Of a stretch of DNA of 55,342 nucleotides, positions 6,132 to 55,137 are shown piece by piece. Each line of letters starts with the position of its first letter. Positions within the stretch are counted from its first letter, which is position 1. The stretch is from IMG/VR virus record IMGVR_UViG_3300009149_000039, positions 1-55,342 of that record; one strand, written 5' to 3'. Source of the stretch: a virus. The position numbers and the translations under genes are program-made. The notes below the pieces were generated by a model. The model searched no databases, had not been told where the DNA came from, and was given only the letters and a program-made list of their open reading frames with translations.

Positions 6132-7112
6132 ATGGACCCAGAAACATACGGTAAAAATACAGATTTAGAATTAATTGCGGAACAACAAAGAAAAGCACAT
6201 ATTGTTAAAAACACATATACAGATGATAACAGTTATGGGGTAACAAATGCAAATGCGATATCAGACGGTGATGAAAAAGGAAAAGGTGAAGGGAAAGACG
6301 GAGTAGTTGGTTCAAGTATCGATATACAAACAAGAATAGCAAACACAATAAAAAATTTATATAACGAAAATTTCGGGTATGGTGTTACCAACCCTAACGC
6401 CATATCAGATGGTGATGAAAAAGGTAAGGGAGAAGCAGGTGATAATGGTAGTGTAGGTTCAAAAACAGATATAAACGAAAGAATACAATTAGTTGCAAGA
6501 AATATTTATAATGAAAATTTCGGGTACGGAGTTACTAATCCAAATGCGATATCAGACGGTGATGAAAAAGGTAAGGGAGAAAATGATGGTAAGATAGGAT
6601 CGGTAACTGATATTAACGAAAGAACACAATTATTAGCAAGAAATACATATGATGAAAATTTCGAATATGATACAACAAACCCTAACGCGATATCAGACGG
6701 TGACGATAAAGGAAAAGGTGAAGGTGAAACAGGTAGTGTAGGGTCAAAAACAGACATAAATGAAAGAACACAATTAGTCGCAAGAAATATCTACGATGAT
6801 AATTTTGGGTATGATGTAACTAACCCTAACGCAATATCTGATGGTGACGAAAAAGGGAAAGGTGAAGGACCAAGTGGAACAATAGGTTCACAAACAGATA
6901 TTAATAGAAGAATAGATAGTGTAGCGAGGAATATATATAATGAATTTTTCGCATATGATGTTACTAATCCTAATGCAATATCAGATGGTGATGAAAAAGG
7001 AAAAGGTGAAGGTGAGGATGGTAGAATCGGGTCAAGAACCGATATTAACGAAAGAATTGTTTCAACAGCAAGAAATGATTATGGTGAACATAATAGATAC
7101 CCTGATTTTTAA
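6132..7112 (+). CDS. Six-repeat virion-type protein (ISDGDEKGKGE repeats)
   Basis: 326 aa made almost entirely of about 44-residue tandem repeats. Each has a helical part (TDINERTQLVARNIYNENF), a turn (GYGVTNPNAISDGDEKGKGE) and a short Gly/Asp variable segment. The ISDGD core occurs six times. The DGDEKGKGE block could be a metal-binding or flexible linker. The stop (7112) shares a base with the next ATG. No catalytic motif is seen; a structural role is inferred from repeat architecture and position. Confidence 0.65.
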   Translation: MDPETYGKNTDLELIAEQQRKAHIVKNTYTDDNSYGVTNANAISDGDEKGKGEGKDGVVGSSIDIQTRIANTIKNLYNENFGYGVTNPNAISDGDEKGKGEAGDNGSVGSKTDINERIQLVARNIYNENFGYGVTNPNAISDGDEKGKGENDGKIGSVTDINERTQLLARNTYDENFEYDTTNPNAISDGDDKGKGEGETGSVGSKTDINERTQLVARNIYDDNFGYDVTNPNAISDGDEKGKGEGPSGTIGSQTDINRRIDSVARNIYNEFFAYDVTNPNAISDGDEKGKGEGEDGRIGSRTDINERIVSTARNDYGEHNRYPDF

Positions 7113-7963
7113 TGACTGAGTTATATACCATATCAAATATTTTATTATTGGAACAGGACAGTAAAATGATGGATTTAAGAAAAGCCATTATTGAACGAAA
7201 ACCAATTTCAATACAATATTCAGGACCACCTGAAGAAGTTTTATCTGGGCCAAGGTATGATATTGAACCAATTGTTATGGGGACAAATGCAAAAAGCGGT
7301 AATCTCGTTATTTGGGCATATGTTTTTAGAGGTGTATCAAAAAAAGGAATACCTGGGTGGAAAATGTTTAGAGTTGATAGAATTCAAAGTATAGATGCTG
7401 ATAGTTTTAATAAAGATTCATTTAAATTAGAAGATTTACCGGGATATCAACAAGGAAAAGCACCAAATGCGATGAAATCCCTAAGTCGTGTTGATATATA
7501 TTCACCATATTGGTTTGAAGGATATAAAAAGAATCAAAAGAAACCATATCAACCAGCACCGCCAGCTCCTGAACCAAAAGAAGTTCCGACAACAGAACCG
7601 ACAACAGCACCGACAGAAGTACCGACAAGTCCTGATTTATTTTCACATAAACTTGATATAATAGCTTTTAATAAATTAAAAGCAAAAGTACAAGATGTTG
7701 ATGGTCAAAAAACGGTAACTAATCAAGAATATCAAGACACATTGAATAATTTATATAAAGACAAAGAAGGTGAATGGAAAAGATATCAATCGATGGTATC
7801 AGGTAATGTAAGACCTGGGGAGGGAACAAGAAATCGATTTAAAACATATGGAAAAAAAGAAATCGATGATTTATTATCACAGAACGGTATTACTGTTTCA
7901 AATGAAGTAAACAATATGGTTGCTGAGATACAAAAAAGATTTAAAGACTTGATTTTTTCATAA
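7112..7963 (+). CDS. WYL-like domain protein with Pro/Thr linker
   Basis: 283 aa. Residues 20-105 have the layout of a WYL-type ligand-binding domain: an N-terminal helix (LRKAIIERKPISIQYSG), an R-x-x-I-x-P strand (RYDIEPIVMG), then an aromatic strand and FRVDRI at about residues 80-90. Residues 145-175 are a Pro/Thr/Glu linker and the rest is helical. WYL domains usually regulate transcription in response to nucleotides, but this one has no visible DNA-binding domain and sits in a virion-type operon. The family call is an inference from pattern. Confidence 0.5.
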   Translation: MTELYTISNILLLEQDSKMMDLRKAIIERKPISIQYSGPPEEVLSGPRYDIEPIVMGTNAKSGNLVIWAYVFRGVSKKGIPGWKMFRVDRIQSIDADSFNKDSFKLEDLPGYQQGKAPNAMKSLSRVDIYSPYWFEGYKKNQKKPYQPAPPAPEPKEVPTTEPTTAPTEVPTSPDLFSHKLDIIAFNKLKAKVQDVDGQKTVTNQEYQDTLNNLYKDKEGEWKRYQSMVSGNVRPGEGTRNRFKTYGKKEIDDLLSQNGITVSNEVNNMVAEIQKRFKDLIFS

Positions 7964-46236: not shown

Positions 46237-46241
46237 CATAT

Positions 46242-46260
46242 GGTGATGTAGCTCAGTAGA
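46242..46260 (+). pseudogene. 5' fragment of a tRNA
   Basis: GGTGATGTAGCTCAGTAGA looks like acceptor strand plus first half of a D-arm and then stops being tRNA-like; it compares with the tRNA starts at 49820 and 54493. The HNH gene follows, so insertion of that gene probably destroyed the rest. Confidence 0.5.
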
Positions 46261-46303
46261 CTGAAAAAAAATATTAGATTTCAGTTTTTATATGTTTTTT
46301 TAG

Positions 46304-46311
46304 TATTTATA
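46304..46311 (+). promoter_or_regulatory. TATTTATA element before HNH gene
   Basis: TATTTATA 15 bases before ATG 46327. Confidence 0.3.
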
Positions 46312-46326
46312 TATAAAATATATATT

Positions 46327-46752
46327 ATGAAAATATGTACAAAATGTAAGAATGAAAAAAACGAAAGTGAATTTTTTTTTAAGAATAAACAAAAAGGTAT
46401 TTTACATTCTAATTGTAAAGATTGTAAACGTGAAATAGATAGACGAAGTTATCACGAAAACAGAAATAATAGAAAAGATAAAATTAGAAAACGTTCTTAT
46501 GATGAAGTAAAAAGAGTTAGAGAATATTATATAGAATATAAGAAAAAACAAAAATGTAATAATTGTGGTGATGATAGATGGTATGTTTTAGATTTTCATC
46601 ATATTGAAAATAAGAAACACACAATAAGTTTTTTAGGAAAGAGGGGGAATATGAAAAAATTAAAAAAAGAACTTACTAAATGTGTACCTTTATGTGCGAA
46701 TTGTCATAGAGAATTACATTATTTAGAACATAACGGAGTGTTGGCAGATTAG
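46327..46752 (+). CDS. HNH homing endonuclease
   Basis: 141 aa. N-terminal CxxC pairs (CTKCKNEKNESEFF, CKDC) form a zinc finger; the HNH core is KCNNCGDDRWYVLDFHHIEN followed by CVPLCANCHRELHYLE. Inserted between a truncated tRNA 5' fragment and tRNA-Phe. Its stop codon lies 18 bases inside tRNA-Phe, so the last five codons double as the tRNA acceptor and early D region, suggesting target-site co-evolution. Confidence 0.85.
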   Translation: MKICTKCKNEKNESEFFFKNKQKGILHSNCKDCKREIDRRSYHENRNNRKDKIRKRSYDEVKRVREYYIEYKKKQKCNNCGDDRWYVLDFHHIENKKHTISFLGKRGNMKKLKKELTKCVPLCANCHRELHYLEHNGVLAD

Positions 46753-49135: not shown

Positions 49136-49143
49136 CAAAATAT

Positions 49144-49385
49144 ATTGAAATTTCTATCGCTCCACGGAGAGGAAATTCGGGACATCATCGCTTAAGGTAG
49201 AAGATAATATCATTAAAAATGCACGATATCATTTATTATGATATTAAGCAAAAATTGTGATATTATCGTTTGTACTACCGAGGATGCAACACAAAACAGT
49301 TTAGAGGGTGAGCGACTCTATTATAACGAGGTAGTGGCAAGTAGATAAATGATAGAATAATACAGAATCCCGGTTATATTTCAAT
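49144..49385 (+). ncRNA. rnpB: RNase P RNA
   Basis: P1: ATTGAAAT (49144-49151) pairs with ATTTCAAT (49378-49385). P2: CTATC (49154-49158) pairs with GATAG (49351-49355). CR-I: GAGAGGAAATTCGGGAC compares with GAGGAAAGTCCGGGC; CR-V: ACAGAATCCCGGTTAT compares with ACAGAACCCGGCTTAT, and CGGGA/TCCCG forms P4. TAGATAAATGATAG before CR-V matches the bacterial TAGATGAATGA segment. At about 242 bases it is much shorter than host RNase P RNA (usually 350-400), so specificity-domain helices are reduced. It would cut 5' leaders from the surrounding pre-tRNAs, probably with host RnpA. Confidence 0.8.
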
Positions 49386-49393
49386 TTTAATAC

Positions 49394-52034: not shown

Positions 52035-52138
52035 TACTGTGAAAAAAAAAATAATAACACAATAGGTGGAATAATTTATGCCAAAATTTTATTTCACCAT
52101 ACGGTCCTGTGGCGGACGTTGGAATACGCAACAGACTT

Positions 52139-53095
52139 TAATAAAATACCGTAAAATTCTAATAATCGAACCAGAGGGGGTGTTTTTATGTGTTTTAAGT
52201 TATATTTATACTATATGAAACATAAATATAATAAAGAACAAGTACAAATAGCAGTAAAAAATAGTTTTTCTATTGCCCAAGTTTGTAGAGAATTAAAAAT
52301 ACGACCATCTGGAGGGAATTATGACACCGTAAAAAAATTGTTCAAAAAATGGGATATTAATATTGATCATTTTACTGGACAAGGATGGAATGTTGGTTTA
52401 AAATTTAAACCTTATAAAAAATACGAACTAAAAGATGTATTAATAAAAAACTCTCCATATAGGTCGACATATTCACTTAAAAAACGATTAATAAAGGAGG
52501 GGGTTAAAAAAAGAATGTGTGAAAACTGTTTTAGAGAAACGTGGATTAATAACCCAATCAATTTAGAACTTCATCACATAAATGGTGATAACACCGATCA
52601 TAGACTAGTAAATTTATTACTACTATGTCCAAATTGTCACTCATATACCCCAAATTTTAGAAAAGGTAAGAGTGCTCTTTCTGAAAAGAAAGAAGTAGAA
52701 TACCGTAAATTCAAGGAAACCTTAACACATAATGGTGATGGCAATCTTGAGCCAAGCTTTTTAACAAAAGAAGGTGCAGAGACTAGACACGGTAAATCTA
52801 AATCTAAAGATGAACATATTTGTTTAAATTGTAAAAAAATATTTTATAATAGAAATAAAGAAAGAAAATATTGTTCAACCAAATGTTATAGAGAACATAT
52901 AAAAATTAATATTCCTAAAGTACCTGAGTTAATAAAAAAATTTAAAGAATTAAAAACATTTACAAAGGTTGGGGAATTTTACTCTGTAAGTGATAACGCC
53001 GTAAAAAAATGGTGTAAATCATATGGAATTTTAGACATGATTAAGGAATAGTCCAGACCACAAACAATAATAGTAATGAAAATTATAGTGGTACG
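52139..53095 (+). ncRNA. Group I intron in tRNA-Leu
   Basis: 957 bases. Core elements are recognisable: Q-like GCAATCTTGAGCCAAGC (52741-52757), R-like GGTGCAGAGACTAGACAC (52773-52790) and S-like GGAATAGTCC (53045-53054, pairing with GACTA of R). The intron ends in G (53095), as group I introns do. P1 could not be resolved by eye. Confidence 0.8.
52215..53051 (+). CDS. Intron-encoded HNH homing endonuclease
   Basis: 278 aa from ATG 52215 (ATG 52188 adds nine poor residues). N-terminal helix-turn-helix-like part (FSIAQVCRELKIRPSGGNYD), HNH nuclease core CENCFRETWINNPINLELHH to LLLCPNCHSYTP, then a stretch that is a translation of the intron core (NGDGNLEPSFLTKEGAETRH), and a C-terminal zinc and HTH part (CLNCKKIFYNRNKERKYC). 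So the reading frame crosses the ribozyme core and stops within the S element. It would promote intron homing into intronless tRNA-Leu genes. Confidence 0.85.
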   Translation: MKHKYNKEQVQIAVKNSFSIAQVCRELKIRPSGGNYDTVKKLFKKWDINIDHFTGQGWNVGLKFKPYKKYELKDVLIKNSPYRSTYSLKKRLIKEGVKKRMCENCFRETWINNPINLELHHINGDNTDHRLVNLLLLCPNCHSYTPNFRKGKSALSEKKEVEYRKFKETLTHNGDGNLEPSFLTKEGAETRHGKSKSKDEHICLNCKKIFYNRNKERKYCSTKCYREHIKINIPKVPELIKKFKELKTFTKVGEFYSVSDNAVKKWCKSYGILDMIKE

Positions 53096-53150
53096 AAACC
53101 CTGTTTTTCGCTGGTTCGATTCCAGTCAGGATCACATTATTATAAAAGAA

Positions 53151-53944: not shown

Positions 53945-54019
53945 GCCCGTATGGCGGACGTTGGCCTACGCGATGGTCTTAGAAACCATTTTTCGAGAGT
54001 TCGATTCTCTCTATGGGCA
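53945..54019 (+). tRNA. tRNA-Leu(TAG)
   Basis: Acceptor GCCCGTA / TATGGGC, Leu-like D-region TGGCGGACGTTGG, anticodon arm ATGGT-CTTAGAA-ACCAT, T-arm GAGAG-TTCGATT-CTCTC. The variable loop is only TTTTC although bacterial Leu tRNAs normally have a long arm. Confidence 0.82.
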
Positions 54020-54138
54020 CAAAGGTTAGTAGTTGGATTCTTAACCATTTGAAGGCGAAGTTTCCTTGGTGAAATTGAAAGGCCGTAGCCACCTGTGGTG
54101 GGTGGTGAACACCATGATAAAGTAGCCGAAAACAATCT
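54020..54138. other. Non-coding spacer with hairpins
   Basis: GGTTA/TAACC (from about 54025) and GGTG-AA-CACC (about 54104) stems. No ORF or tRNA recognised. Confidence 0.3.
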
Positions 54139-54627: not shown

Positions 54628-55137
54628 ATGAAAAAATGTAAACAATGTGAAAAGGAATTAAAAAATCAAAAAAATATATTTTGTTCTAGTAGTTGTGCTG
54701 CAAAATATAATAATCCACGATATCACAAAAAAAAAGATAGATTTTGTTTACAATGTGAAGAAAAATTATTAAAAGAAAAAAAATACCATAACAAATTTTG
54801 TGACTCTAAATGTTCTAATCTTTATAAGTTTGAAAATGTCACATTAAAAAGATTTAATGACGGCAATGTATCAAAAAATACAACATTAAGAAAAATATTA
54901 ATAAACTTATATGGTAATTATTGTTTTGAGTGTAAACAACCTAATAACTGGAATGAAAAGGAATTAATATTAGAGGTTGACCACATAGATGGAAATTCAG
55001 ATAATAATCTACCAAAAAACCTTAGATTATTATGTCCTAATTGTCATTCACAAATGCCAACATCAAAATGTAAACATAAAAAAAAGAACACTAAACGAAA
55101 TAATTATTTACGAAAATTTAAACAGTATGAAACTTAA
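54628..55137 (+). CDS. Free-standing HNH endonuclease
   Basis: 169 aa. Two N-terminal zinc knuckles (CKQCEKELKNQKNIFCSSSC and CLQCEEKLL to CDSKC) precede an HNH core: CFECKQPNNWNEKELILEVD, HIDGNSDNNLPKNLRLLCPN, CHSQ. It lies between tRNA-Ile and tRNA-Val with no intron core around it; a mobile nuclease likely to target tRNA or neighbouring loci. Confidence 0.85.
   Translation: MKKCKQCEKELKNQKNIFCSSSCAAKYNNPRYHKKKDRFCLQCEEKLLKEKKYHNKFCDSKCSNLYKFENVTLKRFNDGNVSKNTTLRKILINLYGNYCFECKQPNNWNEKELILEVDHIDGNSDNNLPKNLRLLCPNCHSQMPTSKCKHKKKNTKRNNYLRKFKQYET

Follow-up and report, generated by a model that had tools for sequence, protein, structure and literature searches.

A group I intron in a phage tRNA-Leu(UAA) gene with an HNH endonuclease reading frame threaded through its ribozyme core

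The tRNA-Leu(UAA) gene of a phage, at positions 52103-53134 of the window, is split between bases 34 and 35 by a group I intron. By the window we mean the whole stretch of DNA that was analysed, a single virus record of 55,342 bases. The interruption is very probably a mobile intron of the bacterial anticodon-loop tRNA type that carries a threaded HNH enzyme and for which splicing and homing are predicted. Group I introns with homing endonucleases are known; what is new is a phage tRNA intron with its endonuclease threaded through the ribozyme. It is an unusual double use of sequence for a catalytic RNA core to coincide along its entire length with codons for a conserved protein. We describe here the anatomy of the intron (Table 1), its covariation, the coding constraint on its frame, its relatives at the same site and the alternating states of its endonuclease.

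An earlier note on this DNA had placed a tRNA-Leu(UAA) split at 34/35, and its coordinates proved exact. With default settings ARAGORN recognises the two exons, once joined, as tRNA-Leu(TAA). Among the neighbouring joins tested, 34/35 combines a 7-nt loop, a U before the intron and a G at the intron end. A U52138.G52670 pair forms at the 5' splice site and the last intron base is G53095. The spliced form shows a single mismatch, A31.C39, and cloverleaf pairing is otherwise kept. Default tRNA and Rfam scans of the window missed the split gene, and ARAGORN with introns allowed did not find it either, likely because of the odd A31.C39 pair, though it finds the relatives. The D-arm sequence and the short variable region match the tRNA-Leu(TAG) of the phage (53945-54020), and the interrupted tRNA is therefore of phage type. 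Both phage leucine tRNAs (52103-53134 and 53945-54020) carry a variable region of 5-6 nt, and bacterial tRNA-Leu is usually long-armed.

Table 1. Coordinates of the interrupted tRNA-Leu(UAA) gene, its intron and the intron reading frame, in window positions
Feature	Position	Strand	Details
5' exon of tRNA-Leu(UAA)	52103..52138	+	Ends ..CAGACTT34 (U34); ARAGORN, joined exons
Group I intron, 957 nt, G-terminated	52139..53095	+	RF00028 core match, helices and covariation, identical junctions in relatives
3' exon of tRNA-Leu(UAA)	53096..53134	+	Begins A35 (A36 A37..); CCA not encoded
P1 loop, 531 nt	52139-52669	+	Between 5' splice site and guide
Internal guide GAGU	52670..52673	+	Pairs exon ACUU 52135-52138 (U.G at splice site) = P1
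P2 hairpin, 7 bp, GAAA loop	52676..52693	+	Two-sided changes at 6/6 scored pairs
Core P3-P4-P5-P6-P7(5')-P3'	52699..52794	+	RF00028 E 1.3e-8; P3 covariation
P3; P7 5' strand	P3 52701-52706/52789-52794; P7 5' strand 52781-52785	+	RF00028 match, P3 covariation
P8	52795..53042	+	AATC 52795-52798/GATT 53039-53042 and TCTAAA 52803-52808/TTTAGA 53030-53035
P7 3' strand (S element, UAGUC)	53049..53053	+	First three bases are the ORF stop codon
3' terminal stem ACCAC/GTGGT with P9 hairpin (GAAA loop), then terminal G	53057..53095	+	
HNH homing endonuclease ORF	52215..53051	+	278 aa from homology-supported ATG; 287 aa from ATG 52188
P1-loop ORF part: N-terminal HTH and HNH motif (CxxC, LELHHxNG, NL, LCPNCH)	52215..52664	+	
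Ribozyme core doubling as interdomain linker (..LTHNGDGNLEPSFLTKEGAETRHG..)	52665..52802	+	Alignments; reduced synonymous change, L265/L266
P8-loop ORF part: zinc ribbon and C-terminal HTH (VSDNAVKKWCKSYG)	52815..53048	+	Alignments; dN/dS 0.31, L265/L266
11-bp hairpin with preferred start AUG 52215 in loop	52199..52233	+	91-nt stretch 52175-52265 folds at z = -2.7

The claim of a group I intron was borne out by several features of the RNA. All helices can be drawn in the window (P1, P2, P3, P4, P5a, P6, P7, P8 and P9), and the Q, R and S elements are all found, as is the terminal G, in agreement with the earlier reading of the sequence. The Rfam search that the earlier note had proposed gave a significant match to RF00028 in the core; the 40.5 bits reached by the window copy fall short of the gathering score of 50, and the likely cause is that the model is broken up by insertions in P1 and P8. 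These insertions place 531 nt between the splice site and the guide and about 220 nt between the P8 strands. Two relatives without the second (P8) insertion, an ORF-free intron from Bacteroidales (L208, 57.8 bits) and a phage intron (L074, 63.3 bits), match the model end to end and above gathering. Covariation over 36 Leu introns revealed two-sided changes in P2, P3, P8 and P9, and none of 500 shuffles was as good. The GAGT guide is conserved in 36 of the 36 relatives compared. P8, which encloses the C-terminal coding part, is likewise paired in 36/36 introns, with two-sided changes at three of four pairs; the two phage introns of the set have AATC/GATT instead of CACC/GGTG there and keep the pairing. 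P3' comes directly after the 5' strand of P7, P7.1 and P7.2 being absent, and this layout, together with the position of the core in the tree, makes subgroup IC3 a plausible assignment.

The presence of a ribozyme between the exons bears on whether the gene is still of use. Of the leucine codons in 18 large window ORFs, 65% are UUA, and the tRNA scan of the window showed no other tRNA with a UAA anticodon, so that the spliced product would be useful. The A31.C39 mismatch and a weak P10 pairing could mean that the product is poor or that this copy is in early decay. Taken further, the mismatch would fit a pseudogene, broken by a free-standing HNH gene or left with an intron that has lost splicing, while the host tRNA-Leu is used; free-standing HNH genes of the same family do adjoin tRNA genes. 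We find this hardly credible, given a complete ribozyme with every helix paired between the tRNA halves, exon cloverleaf pairing that is intact save for one pair, and the codon usage of a phage with no other UAA-anticodon tRNA in the window.

The ORF of the intron matches phrog_10822, a 245-aa family, end to end (E 3.4e-51, residues 11-279 of the 287-aa ORF), and Pfam HNH models gave weak matches only. Starting in the P1 loop, its frame crosses the guide, P2, P3-P7, P3' and P8 up to a UAG stop inside the P7 strand, and hence covers the entire ribozyme core, an overlap on which the earlier note was silent, as it was on the distant guide. The domain order is HTH, HNH, core-coded linker, zinc ribbon and HTH. 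In an AlphaFold model (mean pLDDT 60) the core-coded linker, residues 145-198, falls below 50. The part in the P1 loop is 49-55% identical to the intron ORFs of Bacteroidales and L074, with the HNH residues intact. The same layout, with ORFs of 276-285 aa, was found in tRNA-Leu(UAA) introns of 922-993 nt on other IMG/VR contigs (L265, L266, L271 and L276); L267 and L298 are near copies of L266, and the distinct phage introns sharing the layout thus number at least four besides the window. The hairpin that holds the preferred start codon may control translation; its signal was weak or absent in most relatives tested, and its significance was not consistent.

Comparison of L265 with L266 provides evidence of constraint on this frame. 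The dN/dS ratio was 0.12 in the P1 loop, 0.20 in the core and 0.31 in the P8 loop, and synonymous change was lowest in the core (0.15 versus 0.63 and 0.34, core counts being small), as expected if both RNA and protein constrain the sequence. Frames that end early are found among the relatives, some Bacteroidales ORFs (L152 and L222) ending in L6 and that of L074 in P8, which would suit an accidental read-through of the core with only the HNH part of the P1 loop functional as protein. This is very unlikely in our judgement, since at least four other distinct phage introns, as well as free-standing relatives, conserve the zinc-ribbon/HTH part in frame, and since this part is under purifying selection and completes the full-length match to phrog_10822. 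The frames of two Bacteroidales ORFs, L228 and L234, likewise cross the core and end at the same stop, the zinc-ribbon/HTH part being absent from them.

From the anatomy of the threaded intron and the known behaviour of group I introns, we propose how splicing, cleavage and homing would proceed. The precursor would fold with the guide GAGU bound to the exon ACUU, guanosine would attack after U34, and the freed 5' exon would then attack after G53095 to yield an intact tRNA-Leu(UAA). The HNH endonuclease of the intron would cut or nick tRNA-Leu genes that lack the intron, whether in a co-infecting phage or in the host, and the intron would then be copied in during repair. The core sequence would act as catalytic RNA while also encoding the linker that joins the HNH and zinc-ribbon/HTH parts. 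Such introns have very probably been exchanged between phages and Bacteroidales chromosomes.

Relatives at the same site were sought by scanning 84,980 species genomes of bacteria and archaea for the R element. Among the matches listed were introns in tRNA-Leu(UAA), Asn(GUU), Arg(CCU) and other tRNAs, and at least 26 were Bacteroidales tRNA-Leu(UAA) introns at the same 34/35 position. The carriers are uncultured Bacteroidales, and the core of the window intron is 86% identical to that of one of them (L167). Flanking genes, for example a ComF-like ORF (our own reading) beside L234, suggest that these are chromosomal loci. The Bacteroidales introns include ORF-free forms of 213 nt and HNH-bearing ones of about 725 nt, and decayed remnants also occur; this mix of full-ORF, decaying and ORF-free copies is what the life cycle of a homing intron would lead one to expect. 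Sampling of 199 genomes from one Bacteroidales family turned up 12 carriers, and sampling at order level found it in 1 of 295, so that it is sporadic in Bacteroidales. About 20 further IMG/VR phage contigs hold the same intron at the same site of tRNA-Leu(UAA). Consequently, the suggestion that a cyanobacterial site had newly been carried into the Bacteroidetes world does not hold, the same intron being already present in Bacteroidales chromosomes and in these phage contigs. Note that most relatives are metagenome assemblies and not isolates.

The taxonomic and genic range of such introns is wider. An intron of the same kind, with HNH remains, lies in a phage tRNA-Leu(UAG) gene (L331 2387-3262, CTT|AGG), and the intron has therefore moved to a second Leu isoacceptor. 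Group I introns on viral contigs were also found in tRNA-Thr(UGU), tRNA-Lys(UUU), tRNA-Asn(GUU), tRNA-Met and tmRNA genes. In Klebsiella phage Muenster an unannotated group I intron (L003 2400-2725; RF00028 104 bits) splits a tRNA-Met(CAU)-like gene near 36/37, and the deposited record annotates neither intron nor tRNA there. Phage tmRNA genes of L006, L008 and L009 have a group I intron near their 3' part (RF00023/RF00028 overlap), and a GOLLD RNA is encoded in L009 as well. In L074 there is a second group I intron (7024-7270, minus strand). The tRNA-Asn(GUU) introns of two Pacearchaeota (L131 and L136) have group I-like core sequence at 35/36, and in the crAss-like phages L001 and L002 the 3' part of a similar intron adjoins a GIY-YIG ORF in the replicative helicase region.

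In the tree of intron cores the window joins the Bacteroidales Leu introns (95/91), L074 is next closest, and the cyanobacterial Leu introns form a separate branch (100/99); both groups fall inside one clade of 39 tRNA-intron rows (98/89). The nearest kin of the core are thus chromosomal tRNA-Leu(UAA) introns of Bacteroidales and not those of cyanobacteria, which answers the phylogenetic comparison that the earlier note had called for. The note was right that the split coincides with the classic cyanobacterial tRNA-Leu(UAA) site, both being at 34/35, and it had offered common origin or repeated homing to the same anticodon loop as explanations. Repeated homing is well supported for the phage and Bacteroidales part. 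Common origin with the cyanobacterial and plastid intron would imply one ancient insertion, inherited by or passed to Bacteroidales and phages, and is suggested by the same site, the same guide type (GAG), the same layout free of P7.1 and P7.2 and the shared clade of 39 rows; placing all Leu introns in a single clade costs at best 20 lnL relative to the free tree, and the AU test does not reject it (p = 0.127, on a short alignment). We consider a single insertion rather unlikely. In the free tree the cyanobacterial Leu introns join L007, L244 and L183 first, with modest support, and L007, which falls on the cyanobacterial side, is itself a phage tRNA-Thr(UGU) intron at 34/35. Moreover, the shared CUU loop means that a single guide suits the tRNAs for Leu, Lys and Thr alike, and the site is therefore reachable repeatedly.

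A search of IMG/VR by the window ORF alone returned one locus, and the family was found only by an alignment query, which for the HNH half recovered 80 viral loci; about 20 of these are introns in tRNA-Leu(UAA) and one is the tRNA-Leu(UAG) intron of L331. Free-standing genes have a tRNA within 300 nt at 39 of 41 distinct loci, and the nearest tRNA is tRNA-Leu for 30 of those 39 (UAA in 13), an excess that is in part due to the clustering of Leu genes in the flanking arrays (60/132 tRNAs). Free-standing relatives share the domain order, and their linker is unrelated or shorter. In the protein tree the intron-borne and free-standing forms alternate, with 12 parsimony changes, at least four of which are forced by supported branches; since the tree is unrooted, these changes carry no direction. 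Within its smallest supported clade the window ORF is joined by L265, L266 and the free-standing L268, the last encoded 92 nt from an intact tRNA-Leu(UAA). A pattern search from the D arm of the window tRNA found no relative phage with an empty site. The window contains a second, free-standing HNH endonuclease gene with a phrog_10822 match between tRNA-Ile and tRNA-Val (54628-55137, plus strand).

We tentatively view the tRNA-Leu HNH family, at somewhat short of even confidence, as a natural series in the assembly of a mobile intron. Its members would be the free-standing enzyme next to an unbroken tRNA-Leu, the ORF-free ribozyme at that same site, and the threaded form whose ribozyme core has turned into the enzyme's linker; one state would have passed into another repeatedly, as would phage copies into hosts or the reverse. 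In the tRNA-Leu set both endonuclease forms meet at a single target gene, among phages as well as their likely hosts, and the long-debated joining of endonuclease and ribozyme is therefore testable on it.

The phage origin of the window, as originally read, was corroborated by T4-like major head, portal and terminase genes, and a tRNA array extends from 45.9 to 55.3 kb. Intron kinship and two matches to Bacteroidetes-type promoters indicate that the host is probably a member of Bacteroidetes. The terminase was tried as a host indicator and set aside, the phage relatedness that it shows being distant (about 29%). Within the tRNA array, a candidate RNase P RNA (49141-49392, plus strand) scores 45.2 bits against RF00010, with E 5e-13 when searched alone and below gathering, and displays conserved GAGGAAA, UAGAUAAAUG and ACAGAAUCCCGGUUA blocks. 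At 46240-46752 a tRNA-like 5' half (GGTGATGTAGCTCAGTAGACTG) directly precedes an HNH-like ORF (46327-46752) and a 3' half was not seen; this is possibly a tRNA gene broken by an endonuclease gene.

How does this intron compare with those already described? In 2014, a review by Hausner and co-workers stated that all phage introns known till then were in protein genes, despite the many tRNA genes of phages (PMC3984707). Introns described later in crAss-like phages (PMC7886860) and in Bastillevirinae, where ribozyme elements overlap nuclease genes (PMC11878797), are again in protein genes, and a tRNA-Stop with a 2.5-kb interruption, reported for a phage in 2017, was by the paper's own account a possible artefact (PMC5746245). 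We found no description of group I introns in phage tRNA genes, or in tRNA-Leu genes of Bacteroidales, in the open-access literature searched, subscription papers lying outside its scope. Against the 2014 view (PMC3984707), group I introns recur in phage tRNA and tmRNA genes, yet default tRNA annotation misses them.

The cyanobacterial and plastid tRNA-Leu(UAA) introns (IC3) are likewise inserted at 34/35 and have a short anticodon-loop P1 and a similar core. However, those compared measure about 220-310 nt, too short for the window's ORF, and form a separate branch, whereas the window intron has an HNH ORF through its core. The Bacteroidales tRNA-Leu(UAA) introns share the site, the nearest cores and the same P1-loop HNH, and L228 and L234 stop at the same place in P7; they differ in that host ORFs are without the P8 zinc-ribbon/HTH part and many copies are ORF-free. 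Phage introns with HNH or GIY-YIG enzymes (T4 td, SPO1, Twort, Bastille and crAss-like phages) also unite a ribozyme with a homing endonuclease, in protein genes and not, as here, in a tRNA. Many protein-gene phage introns are of the IA type with the extra helices P7.1 and P7.2, which are absent from the window intron. An overlap of ORF and core is already known from such protein-gene introns (PMC3984707, PMC11878797). Finally, the free-standing phrog_10822 enzymes (Agrobacterium phage Atu_ph07, L268 and L283) also follow the order HTH, HNH, linker, zinc ribbon and HTH, but their linker does not encode a ribozyme, and many of their genes lie beside an intact tRNA-Leu and not inside it.
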